Both the position numbers and the translations under genes were made by a program. From the IMG/VR virus record IMGVR_UViG_3300010401_000085, positions 1-21,559 of that record: 21,559 bases of DNA. One strand, 5' to 3'. Origin of the DNA: a virus. A model generated the notes under the pieces. That model saw only the letters and a list, made by a program, of their open reading frames with translations. It made no database searches and was not told the origin of the DNA. Shown here piece by piece: positions 3,469 to 17,800 of the stretch; positions within the stretch are counted from its first letter, which is position 1, and each line of letters opens with the position of its first letter.

Positions 3469-4629
3469 ATGAGTGACTTTTCATTACACACCCTTTTTGT
3501 AGTTCCAGTAGGTAATAGTCTACCTAGCTCTGGCTCTACCCAGGATTTAACTGCTGGACAATTTGGGATTTTCAAGAACGACTACACTGTTGCCAATGCT
3601 GGTAATATTGCAGCAGCTCCTTATTTCTATCTTGCACAAGGTAGAACAAATACCTATCTTTTAGGATCTAAAAGGTCTAATAAGATTGCAGGTGTAAATA
3701 ACACATCTGGTCAAGGATCAAATGTTATTGAATGGTACAAAGTTAGTGGATGTTCCACTGCTGTAACACAAGTAACTGATGTATCAGGATGGACTGTAAA
3801 GTGTGGTGACATTGTCACTTTAACACTAAGAGCACATTCTTCTTACCTAGATACTCTATATTTCAATGGTTTCACTCGCAGTGTAACTGTTCAAGCTCCT
3901 TGCTGTAACTGCGGTGGAGATCCTTGTACAAATGTGGATGTTCCTACCTTGATTGACAGCTTTATTGCTAAATTAAATCAAGCTGCTCCTGGTATTAACT
4001 CTGATAACATCAAACTTAGCCAGTTCTATCAATTCCAACGTATAGGAAATGATGCTAATGCAATTCTTCGTATTTCTGGTAAACCTCTTACTAGATATGG
4101 ACAACCTTGCGATATTGCAGCTTTCCCTTACGAATATGATAGAATGTACTTCCGTACTTTCGTATATTCAGGTCCTGCAACAACTGCTGATTTTATTGTG
4201 GTTGATAATTGCAATCTTGTAGCAACAGCCCTTGTAACACAGCGTGCAGACTATCCTAAAGGTACTTCTGACGAAATTAAGCAACTTGAAAAGAATCTTT
4301 ATAGCTACCAAGCTGGATACCTTAAGAGTTTATATAGAATGAATGGATATAACGAGAACTTTGAATCATGGGTAACTGATGGTACAAATTATGATACTCT
4401 TTATATCAAATTCAGAGCATACAGTAAAGGAGCTTATCAATGGGGAGATTTCATTCAACAAGATGAAGCTGTAACTATTGCAATTCCTTCAACTTTAACA
4501 TCTGGTATTACCACTGTTCTTAATGCTGCTTTAGGTACTGTACCTGATGATAGTGCTTGCGTAACAACAACATCAACTACTACTACAGTATGGCCTACAA
4601 CTAGTACAACTACAACTTTAGAGCCTTAA
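3469..4629 (+). CDS. Probable auxiliary capsid or abundant virion protein with Thr-rich tail
   Basis: 386 residues. The N-terminal part (SLHTLFVVPVGNSLPSSG, then a DLTAGQFGIFKNDY block) and the central block beginning DVPTLIDSFIAKLNQ look like a protein family common in crAss-like and related Bacteroidetes phages. A Cys cluster, APCCNCGGDPC, sits in the middle (near residue 145) and could hold a metal or disulfides. The last 22 residues are a Thr-rich tract with Val-Trp-Pro and Leu-Glu-Pro breaks. Arg codon use is intermediate (5 CGN of 12), nearer the capsid gene than other genes here, which suggests high expression. It follows the connector gene after a 28-base A/T-rich leader with no SD, and a strong terminator ends the unit. 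The auxiliary-capsid role is inferred from expression signs and position; a tail or ring role remains possible. Confidence 0.75.
   Translation: MSDFSLHTLFVVPVGNSLPSSGSTQDLTAGQFGIFKNDYTVANAGNIAAAPYFYLAQGRTNTYLLGSKRSNKIAGVNNTSGQGSNVIEWYKVSGCSTAVTQVTDVSGWTVKCGDIVTLTLRAHSSYLDTLYFNGFTRSVTVQAPCCNCGGDPCTNVDVPTLIDSFIAKLNQAAPGINSDNIKLSQFYQFQRIGNDANAILRISGKPLTRYGQPCDIAAFPYEYDRMYFRTFVYSGPATTADFIVVDNCNLVATALVTQRADYPKGTSDEIKQLEKNLYSYQAGYLKSLYRMNGYNENFESWVTDGTNYDTLYIKFRAYSKGAYQWGDFIQQDEAVTIAIPSTLTSGITTVLNAALGTVPDDSACVTTTSTTTTVWPTTSTTTTLEP
4561..4626 (+). repeat. Thr-rich codon repeat at the 3' end of the 386-aa protein gene
   Basis: Low-complexity ACA/ACT repeat encoding residues 365-386, broken by VWP and ended by LEP. 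It shares the 12-base core ACTACAACTTTA and the Thr-run, Leu, X, Pro pattern with the much longer tract in the muzzle gene (16408-16542). Confidence 0.85.
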
Positions 4630-4706: not shown

Positions 4707-5273
4707 ATGGCAGATTTAAAATTAGATATATTAGTAATTCCTACATATAACTCTCTCACTTTAGGGATAGCTGATATTTCTACTTATCCAGCAAGTCCTC
4801 CCATCATATCACCAACTATTACCATCACTATTCCTAATGGATTTGGTGCTGTTTCTCTTCCTTTCACTCCTAATAGTTTTAATGTATTTAATTCCTTAAT
4901 TTTAGGATTGAGTTCTCCAGGGGATGATTTAACCCCATTACCTGATGGTCAATATACACTTACATATTCTACAGATCCTTCATATCTTAATTTTGTTACA
5001 AAAACAATAGTAAGGGTAGAAAAATTACAGGAGAAGTTTGATAATGCTTTTATGAAACTTGATATGATGGAATGCGATAGCGCTATAAAAACACAATCTA
5101 AAGTGGATTTAAGTTCTATTTATTTCATGATACAAGGATCTATAGCAGCAGCTAATAATTGTGCAATAGATGTTTCTAATGCATTATACATTCAAGCAAA
5201 TAGAATGTTAGATAGATTTATCAAAAATAACTGTGGGTGTTCAGGAAACAATTTTCTTATAAACTTTAACTAA
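4707..5273 (+). CDS. Conserved phage protein, probable virion accessory, function unknown
   Basis: 188 residues. The N-terminal half is beta-rich with many Pro, Ile and Thr residues (an Ig-like or fibre-like look); the C-terminal half is helical, beginning near VEKLQEKFDNAFMKLDMMEC and containing GSIAAANNC before a CGC motif close to the end. I associate this two-part pattern with a small family found in Bacteroidetes phages next to fibre genes, without a known function. It is the first gene after the terminator and opens the accessory block. A whisker, fibre-attachment or chaperone role would fit its position, but nothing in the sequence decides between them. Confidence 0.75.
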   Translation: MADLKLDILVIPTYNSLTLGIADISTYPASPPIISPTITITIPNGFGAVSLPFTPNSFNVFNSLILGLSSPGDDLTPLPDGQYTLTYSTDPSYLNFVTKTIVRVEKLQEKFDNAFMKLDMMECDSAIKTQSKVDLSSIYFMIQGSIAAANNCAIDVSNALYIQANRMLDRFIKNNCGCSGNNFLINFN

Positions 5274-5677: not shown

Positions 5678-6799
5678 ATGTGTTCAAATTGTTATAACGG
5701 CTGCACTGACATAACCTCAGATCAATGTGTTAGATATACAGGTATAGATATTCCTATATTAGGAATAAAGAATGGAGATAGTTTGTCTTATGTAGAACAA
5801 GCTCTTATCACTTTTTTAGTGTCTACATTAGATGGAACAGGTATTAAACCTACGATTCCTTCTGAAATCATATGTACATTAGTTCAATCCTTTCTTCCTA
5901 CTTGTGAAGATATAACAGAAGTTGACTTATTCAAATCTTTAATTCAAGCTACATGTAGTTTACAAACTCAGATAACTACAGAGAAAAATAGAATAGATGT
6001 AATTGAAGCAGATTATACATTAGATTGTGTTACAGGTGTGAGTACTGGAGATGGTACACATGCTGTTTTACAAGCTGTTATTGTTAAACTTTGTTCTGTT
6101 AGTACAGATTTAGCAGCTTTAGCCTTAAACGTTTCTACAAACTATGTAGCTTTAGCAGATTTAAATTCATTAATTGCTGCATTCTTGGCAAGTATTGCTC
6201 CTTCTGATAACTATTCCAATAGAATGATTCCATTTACAGCAGTTGAATATTATGGATCTCTTGGTAATTTTGATGGTAGTGGTGCAGGGTTAGGACTTTT
6301 TGCAAATATTTATTTGTGTAATGGTAATAATGGCACACCTGATAAAAGGGGTAGAATTCCTGTAGGTGCAATTGCTGGTGTGTCTGGAGGAGCTTTAGAC
6401 CCTGCTGTTAATCCAGCATCTTCTACATTTAATCCAAACTATGCAGTTGGGGATACTATTTATGGAACTAATAGTGTAACATTAAATACTACACAAATTC
6501 CTTCTCATTTACATGCTATTACAGATGTGCAACACAACCATTTAACAGTATATGATAATGGAGCACCTACTGGACAAACAGGAGTAGCTCCTTCAAATAG
6601 TCAACCTATTTTAAGAACTAATGATAGTGGTACAACTATTGCATACAGTATTCAAGGTCCTATTTCAGGAACTCCTAATATTTGTATTACAAGTTCATCA
6701 TATACGGGTATAAATACAACAAATAATACAGGTGGAGGATTGGCACATGATAATAAACAACCTTCTCTGGCATGTTATTATATCATGTACATTCCGTAA
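5678..6799 (+). CDS. Tail-collar-domain fibre protein (probable receptor-binding fibre)
   Basis: 373 residues. Residues 1-40 hold Cys residues (MCSNCYNGC) and the motif YTGIDIPILGI followed by GDSL, probably a docking segment. Residues 50-180 are helical and likely a trimeric stalk. From about residue 183 the protein matches the phage tail-collar pattern: a YLCNGNNGTPDKRGRIPVG block, then an IPSHLHAITDVQHNH His-rich segment in which paired histidines could bind metal ions (as in collar domains of T4-type short fibres), and the terminal HDNKQPSLACYYIMYIP. The last motif is the usual end of the family. The product probably contacts the host surface. Whether it attaches to head or tail cannot be told from sequence. 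Eight bases separate it from the previous gene. Confidence 0.88.
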   Translation: MCSNCYNGCTDITSDQCVRYTGIDIPILGIKNGDSLSYVEQALITFLVSTLDGTGIKPTIPSEIICTLVQSFLPTCEDITEVDLFKSLIQATCSLQTQITTEKNRIDVIEADYTLDCVTGVSTGDGTHAVLQAVIVKLCSVSTDLAALALNVSTNYVALADLNSLIAAFLASIAPSDNYSNRMIPFTAVEYYGSLGNFDGSGAGLGLFANIYLCNGNNGTPDKRGRIPVGAIAGVSGGALDPAVNPASSTFNPNYAVGDTIYGTNSVTLNTTQIPSHLHAITDVQHNHLTVYDNGAPTGQTGVAPSNSQPILRTNDSGTTIAYSIQGPISGTPNICITSSSYTGINTTNNTGGGLAHDNKQPSLACYYIMYIP

Positions 6800-11032: not shown

Positions 11033-11971
11033 ATGAGCTATTATTACAAATATCAATTCGTAAGTCCTGAATCAGCTTATGCTACTGTAAAAGAAGAATT
11101 TAAAAGTTACTTTGATACAGGAGCTATAGATGATTTATTATTTCCCACCTATTTAAACAAAGCATTAGATAAACTTGGTAGAAGTTCTTATGCTATTGTA
11201 CCAGAAGTGTTAGAAATATGTAACTTTGAGGCAAGACTTCCTGATAACTTCTATGCTGTTAGAGAAGCTTGGTTATGTACATCAGTTAATGGTTTCCCTG
11301 TACAGACAGCTAATTCTTTCTATTCTCAGGCAGCCTCTTTAAATACAATCCAAGTATCTCCTGTTATATCTGGAGGAAAAGCTTGTACAAATGTAAATTG
11401 TAATACAGAAGGATGTGATGGAACACAATGTCTTCCTGAATTCATACAAGCCGTATATAAAACAAATAACCAAGTAAATCAAGTATTTCATAAACAATAT
11501 CTCCTAAGACCAGGAAATATATCTAGCCATAAACATTGTTCTTTAGATTGTGCTAATTTTGGAGCAAGTGCTCCTGACAGCTTTGATATTAGAGACAATA
11601 AATTTGTTACTAATTTCAGAAATGGTCATGTCTATCTTATTTTCTATTCTACAGATTATGATAATGAAGGAAATCAAATGATTCCTGACAATTATAGAGT
11701 TAGAGAATACATAGAAGCTTTCTTAAGATATAAAGTAATAGAAACTCTTACTAATCAAGTAAATGATGAAACTTTCAATCAACTTCAGCAAAAGTTAGGA
11801 TATTATAAATCTTTATATGATGAATCGTTTATAATGGCAAAGTTAGAAATACAAAAACAAACAGCTAACGAAAAAATTACTGCTATTAAAGGACAATTAA
11901 ATAGTTTTCGTAAATATGAACTTCCAACAAGAGTATATAGAGGAAGGTGGAGAAGAAACGGTACTGTGTAA
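11033..11971 (+). CDS. Tail adaptor (tail tubular, P22 gp4 / T7 gp11-like)
   Basis: 312 residues. The family pattern is visible: an N-terminal helical part with LFPTYLNKALDKLGRSSYAI; a strand and loop EARLPDNFYAVREAWLC; and near residues 199-235 the typical HVYLIFYSTDYDNEGNQMIP followed by a helix (REYIEAFLRYKVIE). This resembles the 'D-x-E-G-x-x-x-I-P-D' loop and helix of gp4/gp11-like ring proteins that sit below the portal. A Cys-rich insert lies at 118-133 and another Cys pair at 169-173. A long helix (about 245-295) precedes a basic tail. The start lies two bases after the IHF gene, and its stop overlaps the muzzle start (TAATG). By gene order it would be the ring that contacts the muzzle. 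Confidence 0.8.
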   Translation: MSYYYKYQFVSPESAYATVKEEFKSYFDTGAIDDLLFPTYLNKALDKLGRSSYAIVPEVLEICNFEARLPDNFYAVREAWLCTSVNGFPVQTANSFYSQAASLNTIQVSPVISGGKACTNVNCNTEGCDGTQCLPEFIQAVYKTNNQVNQVFHKQYLLRPGNISSHKHCSLDCANFGASAPDSFDIRDNKFVTNFRNGHVYLIFYSTDYDNEGNQMIPDNYRVREYIEAFLRYKVIETLTNQVNDETFNQLQQKLGYYKSLYDESFIMAKLEIQKQTANEKITAIKGQLNSFRKYELPTRVYRGRWRRNGTV

Positions 11972-14900
11972 TGGCTGATCAACAAGAATCAAATATAAGA
12001 CAAGAAAGTACTGCTTTAAGAGCTGGTATGAATATGGATCTTTCGGTAAATCAAATACCTAAAGGACAGACTACTTATGCTTTAAATGGAGCAGTTGAAA
12101 ATTTTGATGCTAATGGTGTTTCTTATCAAAATGAACAGGGAAATGAACTTTGTTTGCAATTTCCCGAAAACTTCAAAAATATAGGAAATCACTTTATTCA
12201 GGAACAAAATAAACATATTTATTTCCTAGTAAATCCTGATACAGGAGATAGTCAAATCGGCCACATGGATAATAATGATTGTATATATAGAGTTTATATT
12301 AATTCTCCTTGCTTAAATTTCAATATTCACCACCCCATCCAAAAAATAGTACATAAGATAACCAACTGTACCACCGAAATCTATTGGACAGATGGGTTTA
12401 ATTCTAGAAGATTCTTAGATTTAAATAATATTCCTTATAGAACATCGATTGGGGACACTATATGTAATGTACATACTTTTACAGATATTGATTGCAACAA
12501 ACTGAAAATACAACCAAATTTTAGTATTCCCGAAATAAAAGTAACAGACGTTATTAATGGAGGAGATAACCCAGCTGGTACTTACCAATTTGCAATAGCT
12601 TATACTGATGTAGCAGGAGATCAATATACTTCTTATTATAGTGTTACAAATCCTACTCCTTTAGCTAATACTCAAATTGATACATTAAATTTTAATTATA
12701 ATGTAAATAAGTCAATTGTATTAAACATTGATAATATTGATGTAACTGGATATTTTCAATATTACAATGTTACAGTGATCAAAACCATTAATAATATCAC
12801 ATCAGTCGAACTTATAGGTACTTATTTTATAGACAATAAAACAAAGGAAATAGTTTATAGTGGACAAAATCAAACTCAAATAAAGCTAACAATAGATGAT
12901 ATATTTGAGAAATTCCCATATTATGATATTGCTCAAGATGTAACAACAGTACAGGATATATTAGTATGGGATCAACTTACTTCCATAGATAGAATTAATT
13001 ATCAACAAATATGGAGTAAAGTTAAGTTATATTGGGAAACATATAGAATTCCATCTACAGAAGATTATTCTAATGAATTAAATGCTACTAATTTAAGGGG
13101 TTATTTAAGGGATGAAGTCTATCCTTTTGAGGGATGTTTCTTATTAAATAATGGTAAACAAACAGATAGTTTCCATATACCAGGAAGGATTGCTCTTCCT
13201 CAGGATTTACAAGATATTTTTCCTACAAACAATGATTTTATAGGAATCCCAGATCCTGTAACAAGAACTCTTCCTACATGGAAAATATATAATACAGCTG
13301 ATATAATAGCTACAGATCCTTCATATACTGGAGATCCTTCTTATAAAGGACCTTACCAGTATGGAAATTTCTCATATTGGGAATCAATAGAAACATACCC
13401 TTGTAATACGGATGTATGGGGAGATTTAGCTGGACAACCCATAAGACATCATAAATTTCCTGATGTTTCAATAAGTCCTATATTTGAAACATCTACATAC
13501 ACCTTAGGGAATACAATATCTCCTATTATGGAGAATAGAGCAATATTTCCTATAGGAGTTAGACTTGATATTGATCAAATATCACAATTAATATCTTCTT
13601 CTAATTTAACAGATGATCAAAAATCATCAATTGTAGGATTTAAAATATTGAGAGGGAATAGAGATACAAATAAGTCAATTATAGGTAAGGGAATATTGAG
13701 AAATGTAGGAAAATATACTAGACAAGGCACAAGTTATTATTTCGCTAACTACCCTTATAACGATTTAAATACTGATCCTTTTCTTCTTGAAAAACCAAAT
13801 GCTTTAAATGCATTGTGTAATACATATTCATTTACAGTGGCAACTGGTGGAACGTACCAATATACAGATTGTTTTACAAACTCGACTTCAGTTGCCGAGG
13901 TAGTACAAGGACAAGCAGTACAAGTATGTTCTTTAACAGTTCCTGTAATGATTACAGCTACAATCACAGGATCTATCACTCAATTAAATTATGATACTTA
14001 TCAATTAACTGCAAATAATAACCCAACAATATTTACCTATACAGATATTTATAATATATTACAAGGTATATCTGTTTATAAAAATCTTCCACAGACAGTA
14101 AATGTTAAAACAAGCACTCATCCAAATGTAATATTCCCGTTTAGCGGAACATATGCACAAATAAATACATTTAAGAATTCATTATGTTATCCTAACAACT
14201 TATCAGCCTTTAATACAGATGATAGTAAATATAGATATGTATTTAATTCACCTGAAACTTCATTCGGACAACCCTTTTTAGGAAATGTTCTTAAATTAGA
14301 AAATGTCGTATTTGGAGCTGGAAAAGCTCATTTTGTAGAAGTTAAAAAAAATGCTTTATATAAATTATTAACAAAAGAAGCCCAGGAAGATGCACTGTTA
14401 TCAAGTGTAGAAATAGCCAGTATAACAAGCCCTTTCAATGCAACTGCAATGTTTACTGCATATCAAGCTTATTTGACTATATATATTAATGGTATTACTA
14501 GAAAGAACTATGGATGGAGTTATAATTCTATAGCAAGCTATAATTACTGGGCTAGTATAGATAATGGATTGGGAATAAAACAAAGAGAATTAGATATAAT
14601 TCAATATCTTATACCTGCTGTTCAAAGTGTAAACGAAAATAATAATATTGTAGTTAATAACTATCAAAGGGAATCATCTATTTATTTGAAAACAAATGAA
14701 GGAAAACCCCCCCTTCCATTTGATAGTCAAACTCCCTCTCTATTAATACCTGGAAATATAAGTGCTATAACTGATATTTCCAGATTTGTAAATTCTCAGA
14801 AAGACTGCTCAATTCCACAAAATCAGTTTGACATAAGTGTAGTTTCTTATTATGGATCAATAAAGAATAATATTCTAAATCAATGGGGACAAATGTATTC

Positions 14901-16929
14901 TTATGAAACTATAGATACAGGTTTCCAAGGATTTTTAAATGAAGGTTTATCAACAGTAACTATTTTTGGAGGAGATACATTCATTAATAAATTTTCTTTT
15001 AAGACTAAACTTCCATTTTTCATTGATAACAGGGTGGGTGCTCCTGATGATAGTGATATATTTTATGATGAGATAGGTAATGTTGCATATCCTCAATATT
15101 GGCATTCTGCCAGATCTATACTATTTGATTATAAGGTTGGTACTTCAAGCACTTATGGAAAAAATTTAATATCTATAAAAGCTCACTATTTAGACTGTCC
15201 TAATAATCAACTTCCAGCACCAGATCCAACTACAACTCCTCCTGTGGTGAATCCAAGTAGAACTTACTATGATGGGAAAATGTATATGTTTGCTTATGGG
15301 ATTCCTACATTCTATTGCGAATCTTCTATAAATATAGACTTAAGACAAGCTTTTAATAATAGAGAGGGAGATTTCTACCCTCATGTAACTAGATCTATTC
15401 CAGATGATTGGGTGCAAGAATCTTTTGTTCCTATAGCTCAGGATAACACATACTATTATAATGTAAGTTATTCTAAACAAAATAAGGAAAATTTCTTTTC
15501 ACATCTCCCTATTAACTGGAGACAGCAATTATGTTTCACTCATTTTCCTTTCAGAACTATATATTCTGAGGCTCAACAAAGCTTTACAGATAATAAAATA
15601 AATAGTTGGCTTATCTACAAACCAGTATCTTATTTTGATTTTCCTCAGAATTATGGAAAATTAACATCTTTAGATGGAATTGAAAATAAAGCAATTCTAG
15701 CTAGATTTGAGAATAAGAGTTTATTATATAATACATTATTAACAGTGGATACTTCTAATCCTAAAGCAGCATGGTTGGGAAATGATACTTTATTTAGAAG
15801 TAGTCCTCCTATTGATTTTGCTGAAACAGATTTAGGATTTGTTGGGAGCCAACATAAATTTCTATTAAAAATACCTCAAGGACAAATAACAGTAGATGCA
15901 AAAAGAGGACAAGTATTTCTCATATCTGGAAATTCTGTTAAAGATCTTTCCCAATTTGGGAGTGGATTAAATAGATTCTTTACAGATCATTTGGCCTTTG
16001 AAATACTTAGATATTTTCCAAATGTAGATATAGATAATAATTTCACAGGTATTGGACTACATGGGGTGTATGATAGTAAATTTGATAGAGTTATTATATC
16101 TAAATTAGATTATATTCCCTTAAGTAAGGATATTAAATATAATTCTGATACTAAAGAATTCTATGTAACTAAAACTTATCCTCAATCAGAAGGAGATCCT
16201 TTAAGTACCATAGAAATAGTTAACTTGACAGATAATAGTTATTTTTGTAATAAATCATGGACATTGTCCTATAATACAAATACACAAAGCTGGATTAGTT
16301 TTCATAGTTATATTCCTAATTATTATATAGCTGAGAATAATTTTTTCTATTCTGGTATAAATGATGGATGTGATTTAGAAGCTATAGCTTTTCAAGAAAC
16401 TCCTTTTACTACAACAACTACATCAACAACAGCCACTCCTACAACAACTACTACATCAACCACAACTTCTTCCACTACTACATCAACTACAACATCTACT
16501 ACTACAACTTTATCTCCTACAACAACAACAACAACTACATTAGCTTCTAATAGTTTCGATGGCTCATTTACATATGGTACAGGAGGAGGGAATACATTTG
16601 ATGTATCAGTTGGAAGCGGTTCACATTTACTGGCTTCAGTAGATCCAATTTTAGCAGGTAGTTCAACTTTATCTGTAATAAGCACAAGCTCACCTACTCT
16701 TAGTCCTAGTTTTACTTCTTTTGATATACTTGCAGATGCTTTTCCTACATCTACTGTATTAGGAGTAAGTTCTAATACAGCTAAGTTTCATGACAATACT
16801 ACATCAACAGATTATAACTGCGTTATTACAGGAATTGGTAGTCATACTTTAATATTAACATTTACTATCCCTAGTGTTTCAGGTCATAGTTTTACATTAA
16901 GTGGAAACGTAACTTCAACAGGAGGATAA
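11971..16929 (+). CDS. Tail muzzle protein, main part, with Thr-rich tract and added beta domain
   Basis: 1652 residues from the ATG at 11971, which overlaps the upstream stop (TAATG); an in-frame ATG eight codons earlier lies inside the adaptor gene. The N-terminus (RAGMNMDLSVNQIPKGQTTY, then ALNGAVENFDANG) and the body are typical of the very large crAss protein that forms the distal tail 'muzzle' in the solved crAss-like virion. The body is Tyr/Asn/Phe-rich and beta-rich. At about 1430-1479 a conserved run appears (FCNKSWTLSYNTNTQSWISF, HSYIPNYYIAENNFFYSGI), after which family members as I recall them either carry Thr-rich insertions or continue. Here a 45-residue Thr tract (1480-1524) and a 128-residue beta-rich domain follow, then a stop. 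The presumed remainder is encoded by the next gene. A run of seven C at 14707-14713 is a possible slippage site. Confidence 0.87.
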   Translation: MADQQESNIRQESTALRAGMNMDLSVNQIPKGQTTYALNGAVENFDANGVSYQNEQGNELCLQFPENFKNIGNHFIQEQNKHIYFLVNPDTGDSQIGHMDNNDCIYRVYINSPCLNFNIHHPIQKIVHKITNCTTEIYWTDGFNSRRFLDLNNIPYRTSIGDTICNVHTFTDIDCNKLKIQPNFSIPEIKVTDVINGGDNPAGTYQFAIAYTDVAGDQYTSYYSVTNPTPLANTQIDTLNFNYNVNKSIVLNIDNIDVTGYFQYYNVTVIKTINNITSVELIGTYFIDNKTKEIVYSGQNQTQIKLTIDDIFEKFPYYDIAQDVTTVQDILVWDQLTSIDRINYQQIWSKVKLYWETYRIPSTEDYSNELNATNLRGYLRDEVYPFEGCFLLNNGKQTDSFHIPGRIALPQDLQDIFPTNNDFIGIPDPVTRTLPTWKIYNTADIIATDPSYTGDPSYKGPYQYGNFSYWESIETYPCNTDVWGDLAGQPIRHHKFPDVSISPIFETSTYTLGNTISPIMENRAIFPIGVRLDIDQISQLISSSNLTDDQKSSIVGFKILRGNRDTNKSIIGKGILRNVGKYTRQGTSYYFANYPYNDLNTDPFLLEKPNALNALCNTYSFTVATGGTYQYTDCFTNSTSVAEVVQGQAVQVCSLTVPVMITATITGSITQLNYDTYQLTANNNPTIFTYTDIYNILQGISVYKNLPQTVNVKTSTHPNVIFPFSGTYAQINTFKNSLCYPNNLSAFNTDDSKYRYVFNSPETSFGQPFLGNVLKLENVVFGAGKAHFVEVKKNALYKLLTKEAQEDALLSSVEIASITSPFNATAMFTAYQAYLTIYINGITRKNYGWSYNSIASYNYWASIDNGLGIKQRELDIIQYLIPAVQSVNENNNIVVNNYQRESSIYLKTNEGKPPLPFDSQTPSLLIPGNISAITDISRFVNSQKDCSIPQNQFDISVVSYYGSIKNNILNQWGQMYSYETIDTGFQGFLNEGLSTVTIFGGDTFINKFSFKTKLPFFIDNRVGAPDDSDIFYDEIGNVAYPQYWHSARSILFDYKVGTSSTYGKNLISIKAHYLDCPNNQLPAPDPTTTPPVVNPSRTYYDGKMYMFAYGIPTFYCESSINIDLRQAFNNREGDFYPHVTRSIPDDWVQESFVPIAQDNTYYYNVSYSKQNKENFFSHLPINWRQQLCFTHFPFRTIYSEAQQSFTDNKINSWLIYKPVSYFDFPQNYGKLTSLDGIENKAILARFENKSLLYNTLLTVDTSNPKAAWLGNDTLFRSSPPIDFAETDLGFVGSQHKFLLKIPQGQITVDAKRGQVFLISGNSVKDLSQFGSGLNRFFTDHLAFEILRYFPNVDIDNNFTGIGLHGVYDSKFDRVIISKLDYIPLSKDIKYNSDTKEFYVTKTYPQSEGDPLSTIEIVNLTDNSYFCNKSWTLSYNTNTQSWISFHSYIPNYYIAENNFFYSGINDGCDLEAIAFQETPFTTTTTSTTATPTTTTTSTTTSSTTTSTTTSTTTTLSPTTTTTTTLASNSFDGSFTYGTGGGNTFDVSVGSGSHLLASVDPILAGSSTLSVISTSSPTLSPSFTSFDILADAFPTSTVLGVSSNTAKFHDNTTSTDYNCVITGIGSHTLILTFTIPSVSGHSFTLSGNVTSTGG
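16408..16542 (+). repeat. Thr-rich codon repeat in the muzzle gene
   Basis: Forty-five codons, of which 33 are Thr: 19 ACA, 13 ACT, 1 ACC; the rest are Ser, Pro, Leu and Ala. Units end in Leu-Ser-Pro and Leu-Ala-Ser. The predominance of ACA matches the phage tRNA-Thr(UGU). At protein level it is a stiff or glycosylatable linker; at DNA level it could be a recombination or slippage site. Confidence 0.9.
16920..16926 (+). promoter_or_regulatory. Shine-Dalgarno sequence for the 289-aa gene
   Basis: AGGAGGA at 16920-16926, four bases before the ATG at 16931, inside the last codons of the muzzle gene. It is the only start here I found with a full SD core; other starts follow A-rich leaders, as is usual for Bacteroidales. 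It may serve re-initiation after the muzzle stop. Because its bases encode Gly-Gly, chance is possible. Confidence 0.55.
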
Positions 16930-16930
16930 T

Positions 16931-17800
16931 ATGAGTAAAAATATTACTATAAAATTAACTAAAGCTGGAAATAGAACTAGTCTATTTTCCATTTCTGATG
17001 ATTTAGGAAATTTGCTTGGTAACAATATTACTAAGCAACAATTGATTTCAGGTGTGTCATTTAACATTAATGATAGTGTTAAAGTAATAATTATAAGAAC
17101 AGTTTCTGGAAATTGTGCTAAAGTCCTAAATATACCTATTACTACAATGTTTTTAGATGAGGTAGCAGGAATTCAATTTAAAGATAGTAACACTGGTAGT
17201 TTATGGAGACATCTTACAAATCCTTCAATGTATAACTCCTTTTATGGAAGTATATTTCCATATATAATAGAATATCCTTTTGCTTATCAATACTATGATG
17301 AAATAGTACAAAATGTAAAAGATTATACAAAAGTCTATAAGTATCTTCCTACTGATGATGGGATATTTAATTCTAACAGAAGAATAGAAACTGATAATGA
17401 TTACTTCAATAAAGCTGTTCTTTATAATGATCAACAATCTTCAGGAATATTGAATTTGATCCCAAAACCTATTAATAATCTATTTCAGTATGTTTCCTAT
17501 CCTAAATACAATTCTGATAGTAAAACTATATTATTCTCAAAAAGAGACAATTTCTATCAATATAACACTTTCTGGTCTTTAGTTAAAGATAAATCAGTTC
17601 CTTTATTTATAACTTCATGTACATCTTTGTCCATAGATAAAGAAGTGAATCAAGATAATATGGATTACAGTACTAGATCATTTAAAAAGGATACAATTAG
17701 AGCTAAAGACTTGAAAGTCAGAATGTTACTCGATAATAGATCAGATATACACTTAGTGAGTCAATTCTTAATAACTCCTTCACAAATAAGCTATTTATAA
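16931..17800 (+). CDS. Probable detached C-terminal part of the muzzle, with a small N-terminal module
   Basis: 289 residues, starting two bases after the muzzle stop. Residues 1-72 form a separate beta-rich module (ITIKLTKAGNRTSLF, then SVKVIIIRTVSGNCAKVLNI) like short domains often found beside Thr-rich linkers in Bacteroidetes phage virion proteins. From about 85 the sequence changes to a muzzle-like body: NSFYGSIFPYIIEYPFAYQY, DEIVQNVKDYTKVYKYL, QQSSGILNLIPKPINNLFQY, SIDKEVNQDNMDYSTRSFKK and the terminal LDNRSDIHLVSQFL. In my recollection this block normally continues the muzzle chain after the 'PNYYIAENNFFYSG' region. I therefore infer that here the muzzle is assembled from two polypeptides. 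An independent minor tail protein cannot be excluded. No membrane segment or enzyme motif is seen. Confidence 0.72.
   Translation: MSKNITIKLTKAGNRTSLFSISDDLGNLLGNNITKQQLISGVSFNINDSVKVIIIRTVSGNCAKVLNIPITTMFLDEVAGIQFKDSNTGSLWRHLTNPSMYNSFYGSIFPYIIEYPFAYQYYDEIVQNVKDYTKVYKYLPTDDGIFNSNRRIETDNDYFNKAVLYNDQQSSGILNLIPKPINNLFQYVSYPKYNSDSKTILFSKRDNFYQYNTFWSLVKDKSVPLFITSCTSLSIDKEVNQDNMDYSTRSFKKDTIRAKDLKVRMLLDNRSDIHLVSQFLITPSQISYL

Follow-up and report, generated by a model that had tools for sequence, protein, structure and literature searches.

A tail muzzle divided between two chains, with exchangeable domains at the break, in a clade of crAss-like phages

The muzzle closes the tail at its tip and controls ejection, and it ranks among the hallmark proteins of a phage order that is one of the most abundant. 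In phiCrAss001 it is gp44 (PDB 7QOK/7QOL; PF25731), a single chain of 1371 aa whose IG2/crass region spans residues 318-1021 and whose IG1 domain is suspended beneath the propeller, between its second and third blades (PMC10172136). The length variation that the Crassvirales atlas reports among muzzles stems from inserts in crass and IG2 rather than from a split (PMC10172136), and no report of a split muzzle was found in the open-access literature searched. Both muzzle parts also lie in one ORF in csAssE-Sib (2257 aa), the Leptolyngbya phage Lbo-JY46 (1654 aa), Fpv1 (1783 aa), phi17:2 (2289 aa) and the fecal contig MT837925. Here we describe a contig of an uncultured virus, analysed over its 21,559 bases (a 21.6-kb fragment; hereafter the window), in which the muzzle is divided between two ORFs.

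A muzzle gene in two reading frames

The window has the gene order of phiCrAss001, ring protein 1 and then the muzzle (Table 1), and its core and C-terminal block are homologous to those of gp44; however, gp44 forms a tight turn where the window has two chains and cassettes. The core chain, P0001, matched Pfam crAss_MUZ (PF25731) at 2.4e-29 and phrog_37948 at 7e-110. Residues 90-287 of the second chain, P0002, matched the last 193 of the 1783 positions of the muzzle family phrog_15100 (1.6e-9), the beginning of which matched P0001. The window's core and C-terminus both match the Crassvirales muzzle family by sequence, but the window, like 112/112 loci of its clade, has two ORFs in place of that family's single polypeptide per protomer. 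The split muzzle that a preliminary description had proposed is therefore real: the core ORF (11971-16929) is followed by an ORF (16931-17800) that carries the muzzle C-terminal ~200 residues. The add-on domains were correctly placed exactly at the break, namely the Thr-rich tract and terminal domain of P0001 and the N-terminal module of P0002. The second chain does have a module of its own, although its length is rather ~75-78 residues than the 72 first given.

Table 1 Features of the muzzle locus in the window
Feature	Position	Strand	Remarks
Tail ring protein 1	11033..11971	+	Upstream neighbour of muzzle core; Pfam CrAss_Ring_1 3e-11
Muzzle core chain P0001	11971..16929	+	1652 aa from ATG; Pfam crAss_MUZ, phrog_37948, phrog_15100
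Core part alignable to single-chain muzzles	11971..16362	+	Residues 1-1464, end ...NNFFYSGIN
Site B loop, unbroken in window	16120..16254	+	Residues 1384-1428
Inserted tail start, DGCDLEAIA...	16363..16404	+	Contains Cys1467
Thr-rich linker	16405..16545	+	Residues 1479-1525 of core chain
Variable beta-rich cassette domain	16546..16926	+	127 aa; residues 1526-1652 of core chain
Break	16927..16930	+	TAA stop (16927-16929) and one base, then ATG
Muzzle C-terminal chain P0002	16931..17800	+	289 aa; ATG at 16931, +1 frame relative to core
P0002 N-terminal module	16931..17155	+	Residues 1-75, with Cys62; AF2 fold confident
C-terminal muzzle block	17186..17797	+	P0002 residues 86-289; remainder of last propeller blade and muzzle C-terminus

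Single-chain muzzles run straight through this position. In five of six there is no insert at the window's break loop and the halves abut; in csAssE-Sib, Lbo-JY46 and MT837925 the C-terminal match begins within a few residues of the end of the core match, while phi17:2 and Fpv1 make the same short turn at the break loop and carry an insert ahead of it, in or close to a second loop (site B, below). Across single-chain loci, ~3-14 residues lie between the two halves. The turn FQTGxNxxxGLWSHLLTNKSY also occurs in 38 loci found with a profile built from an alignment of four single-chain ends; single-sequence scans with the C-termini of Lbo-JY46 and csAssE-Sib found no loci. One clear exception, L278, has a small in-chain domain at the break loop. 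Relative to single chains, the window has in addition residues 1465-1652 of P0001 and 1 to ~86 of P0002, with a stop and a start in the middle. The same C-terminal block ends the muzzle in Lbo-JY46, csAssE-Sib, phi17:2/phi4:1 and Fpv1, which have neither the break nor the module at the window's break loop; in phi17:2 the insert is at the site B loop only. The preliminary description had allowed that single-chain homologues might end before this point and that the 289-aa protein might belong to an unrelated family found apart from the muzzle. Instead, single-chain homologues pass through the break, and the 289-aa protein always adjoins the core. Among the annotated phage records searched, the muzzle closest to the split clade is that of Lbo-JY46 (PP438436.1), for which a cyanobacterial host is recorded.

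PDB sequence searches with P0001, P0002, A1 and A3 gave no significant match, and no relatives were found in the GTDB genome contigs searched. No Pfam or PHROG family was found for the window's cassette domain (residues 1526-1652), relatives of which occur on the core tails of two other loci (L174 and L228). When P0002 was modelled alone with AF2, the module reached pLDDT 76-90 and the prediction was poor elsewhere (mean pLDDT 61), which fits a fragment that needs a partner but may also stem from a narrow alignment; a Foldseek search of this model against the PDB returned no match under 1e-3. A full-length relative of P0002, with 53% identity in the Foldseek alignment, is A0A7S9SU37 (287 aa) of Virus NIOZ-UU157, which is annotated as 'uncharacterized' and not as a muzzle. 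The 939-aa A0A7S9STY0 of the same virus matched over 75 columns with an rmsd of 2.2, probably through the module.

The position of the break in the fold was approached through a natural single-chain segment of 536 aa from locus L242 that spans it. Its model (mean pLDDT 67, with the break loop below 50) matched the phiCrAss001 muzzle (7QOL/7QOK) with an E-value of 1.3e-13 over 455-459 columns, so that the gp44 propeller fold was recognized in a single-chain relative aligned with the window rather than in the window's own chains. By hhalign (96.7%, 3e-10; one target sequence), the break falls at the gp44 turn EFYAFKDG/KMWEQF, residues 1229-1242 (~1236) of 1371. This is after the IG2/crass region and therefore in the last propeller blade; with strands read A-B-C-D, the one-target alignment and motifs would map it to the B-C hairpin of that blade. 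B-C and D-A loops of propellers share a face, and because IG1 lies below the propeller, the break may point to the distal side. The earlier wording, which placed the added domains 'at the tail tip', is not supported: the break maps to the last blade of the beta-propeller, which in the sequence follows the distal crass domain.

Fixation of the split and cassette turnover in one clade

From ~400 relatives of P0002 in IMG/VR, the best 80 per query were taken, and 150 loci with both muzzle parts were retained after duplicates were removed by C-terminus. These comprised 23 single-chain loci, 112 split at the window's position (site A) with the module, and 15 split elsewhere. The 112 formed one clade on the C-terminus tree (SH-aLRT 99) and were set apart by a single branch (93) on a core tree built independently, and no fused member was seen within this clade. 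Beyond what had first been described, the split is thus the fixed state of a whole clade, with a single origin. The C-terminal chain starts with ATG in 110/112 loci and stops are TAA in 108/112; the relative frames of the two chains are spread 35/38/39 over the three frames, and the gap in loci without a middle ORF is -1 to 34 nt, mostly 10-12, two three-piece loci excepted. The C-terminal chain was single copy in 16/16 contigs. The C-terminus is strongly conserved and under purifying selection. Between the window and L002, dN/dS values were ~0.11/2.07 for the core and ~0.14/1.86 for the module, and for the C-terminus dN was 0.16 with dS saturated.

The break is a hypervariable site for cassettes. 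Counted outside Thr-rich stretches, the inserts of the 112 loci comprised 185 domain pieces, which fell into 69 families, including 33 with a single member; no cassette domain of at least 45 aa was recognisable in 12 loci. Cassette domains were shared by 59% of pairs whose core segments are ≥95% identical, 24% of those at 85-95% and 8% of those at 75-85%. L080 and L081, which are 100% identical over a 322-residue core segment, 98% in the C-terminus and 97% in the module, have no cassette domain in common. The site can also take whole extra ORFs, a feature that had escaped the preliminary description: one or two middle ORFs, up to 1.4 kb, lie between the halves in 53/112 loci, and every one begins with a relative of the P0002 module. 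Some cassette families occur both on core tails and in middle ORFs (one of them 16 and 5 times, respectively).

Relatives of the module also head Thr-rich, adhesin-like ORFs in other crAss-like contigs, often in tandem, which sit in an appendage cluster before the phosphoesterase gene. The N-terminal module of P0002, which had not been traced before, is borrowed from such appendage genes. ORFs that do not belong to the muzzle set contained relatives of 18/185 cassette pieces; the best of these matches included some module-bearing appendage ORFs (e.g., L157 4963-6354, 43% over 249 aa), and a few of the 18 were muzzle pieces from loci broken at site B. Most cassette domains are without a known family. 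The order core-[Thr-domain] stop, ([module-Thr-domain] stop)n, [module]-C-terminus is what would be expected if a stretch of such an array had been inserted into the muzzle gene. Tandem arrays of module-headed appendage ORFs were noted in L115, L128, L133, L142, L157 and L160, and the module also occurs as a stand-alone 71-aa ORF (L157, L160).

Judged by motif, 111/112 split cores have a cysteine after the FYSG loop, of which Cys1467 of the window is an example, whereas 1/23 single chains have any cysteine in the corresponding loop. The module has a cysteine at positions 50-72 in 112/112 split loci. A disulfide across the break, from core to module, is possible from this pairing, and phiCrAss001 tails use inter-chain disulfides (PMC10172136). 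One to several CxLxGTA repeats, with Thr-rich linkers between them, were seen in the core tails of L006-L020 and others, starting at GCDLEAIA; a fixed one-to-one count of repeats and modules, checked by eye in a few loci, did not hold.

A second break one blade earlier

A second split, likewise absent from the preliminary description, was found in 15 loci (L251, L252, L254-L256, L259, L265, L267, L269, L270, L272, L274 and L277-L279) of the sister group to which phi17:2 belongs. The break at this site B follows FITKKDYIP, one blade earlier; its placement relies on the motif and AF2 strands, as that given by hhalign against gp44 was judged unreliable. Variable domains form the end of the first chain; in L256 they include PKD_5 and Ig_7 above cut-off, and leucine-rich-like repeats are also seen by eye in these ends. 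The second chain begins with a Cys-rich module (MxCNCP...CPEGC...) and continues with FEDVSWTIAYSP to the C-terminus; in L259 a middle ORF (PKD_5) lies between the two. In single-chain members of the sister group the site B loop is either free of inserts or holds one within the chain, with a weak VWA match in L262.

The site B muzzles resemble the window's in that a core ending in variable domains, a stop, a new start with a small module and the muzzle C-terminus follow one another. However, the break is one blade earlier and the Cys-rich module is unrelated. The split label at site B needs at least five changes (gains or losses) on the trees, and the site B split is independent of that at site A. 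Two members of the window's clade, L071 (2036-8882) and L342 (2-5870), have three-piece muzzles, broken at both sites. Corresponding hairpins of two neighbouring blades were broken independently, with swappable domains at the cut.

Proposed assembly and alternative readings

Based on these findings, we propose a muzzle of two chains whose propeller is completed in trans and whose break serves as a plug-in site for exchangeable cassettes that are likely to contact the host, a reading that we hold with considerable confidence. The first chain would supply the N-terminal part, most of the propeller, the IG domains and the crass domain, and would end with a Thr-rich linker and an exchangeable domain. 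The second chain, headed by the small beta module from appendage proteins, would contribute the last half-blade and the C-terminus and complete the propeller in trans, probably as a 6+6 complex, so that each protomer would consist of two subunits. Within the B-C hairpin of the last blade, whole module-Thr-domain ORFs could be inserted between the two chains. Since an ordinary gene end lies on either side, cassettes could be exchanged with no need to preserve the frame or to refold the core. The cassettes, probably exposed, would most likely contact the host surface. Taken as a whole, the earlier reading is partly supported, its two subunits per protomer and host contact being inferred.

For ALTERNATIVES, readings of the split as a frameshift, readthrough, intron, intein, retroelement or assembly error were each considered and rejected. 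Chance or assembly error is ruled out because the same break and the same module are present in 112/112 distinct site A loci sampled. Programmed frameshifting, stop readthrough or bypassing could fuse both ORFs into one muzzle chain, as a single base separates them in the window and stops are recoded in crAss-like phages (PMC7886860). This is very unlikely, given that the evenly spread frames leave no fixed frame relation at the junction, that complete ORFs lie in between in about half of the loci, and that the ATG at the module and the TAA stops are nearly invariant. In Zeta crAss-like phages, MCP, TerL and PolB are interrupted by introns and inteins (PMC7886860), and a self-splicing intron or an intein would likewise leave a mature muzzle of one chain; we consider this highly improbable. 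An Rfam intron was absent from the window and eight relatives, searches of Pfam and NCBIfam gave no match to an intein or endonuclease family at the break, the insert is coding on both sides of it, and the cassettes vary completely between near-identical cores.

Diversity-generating retroelements, by which tail fibres of Zeta crAss-like phages are hypermutated (PMC12386605), might be thought to act on the cassette. However, the variation consists of whole-domain replacement and not of site mutation, and the reverse transcriptase RVT_1 was absent from 16 contigs of the clade, most of them >90 kb; this reading is largely refuted and has a next to negligible chance of being correct. A different objection accepts the split but sees the cassettes as neutral linkers and passengers, so that the two-chain muzzle alone would be of consequence. 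The loci in which no cassette domain was recognisable and the lack of a known function for most domains speak for it. Nonetheless it appears unlikely, since the same families of domains are found repeatedly, in different loci and at either position, some are common to appendage ORFs, PKD/Ig types occur at site B, and open frames are kept. Beyond the two-chain muzzle with a plug-in site that we favour, we can offer only tentatively, as a rather doubtful extension, a modular multi-chain propeller in which the module holds the broken blade, possibly through the disulfide, middle ORFs share its seat, and receptor binding could help to open the gate. If true, adhesins would be mounted straight on the propeller that bears the gate, and the blade could be pulled apart when a receptor is bound.

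Two independent breaks suggest how an essential hexameric machine may gain host-contact parts without refolding. The break also offers a defined place in which to seek receptor-binding determinants in uncultured crAss-like phages. For annotation, a C-terminal muzzle chain listed as uncharacterized can now be corrected, and a split gene would otherwise be misread as truncated.

Elsewhere in the window, a tRNA gene (Rfam RF00005) lies at 1638-1710, between the first ORF and the next, and a tail-fibre-like protein (phrog_8763, phrog_8469) is encoded at 5678-6799. Another structural ORF, at 3469-4629, has a Thr-rich tract at its end (TTTSTTTTVWPTTSTTTTLEP), with the next ORF starting at 4707; this end is possibly a second variable end.
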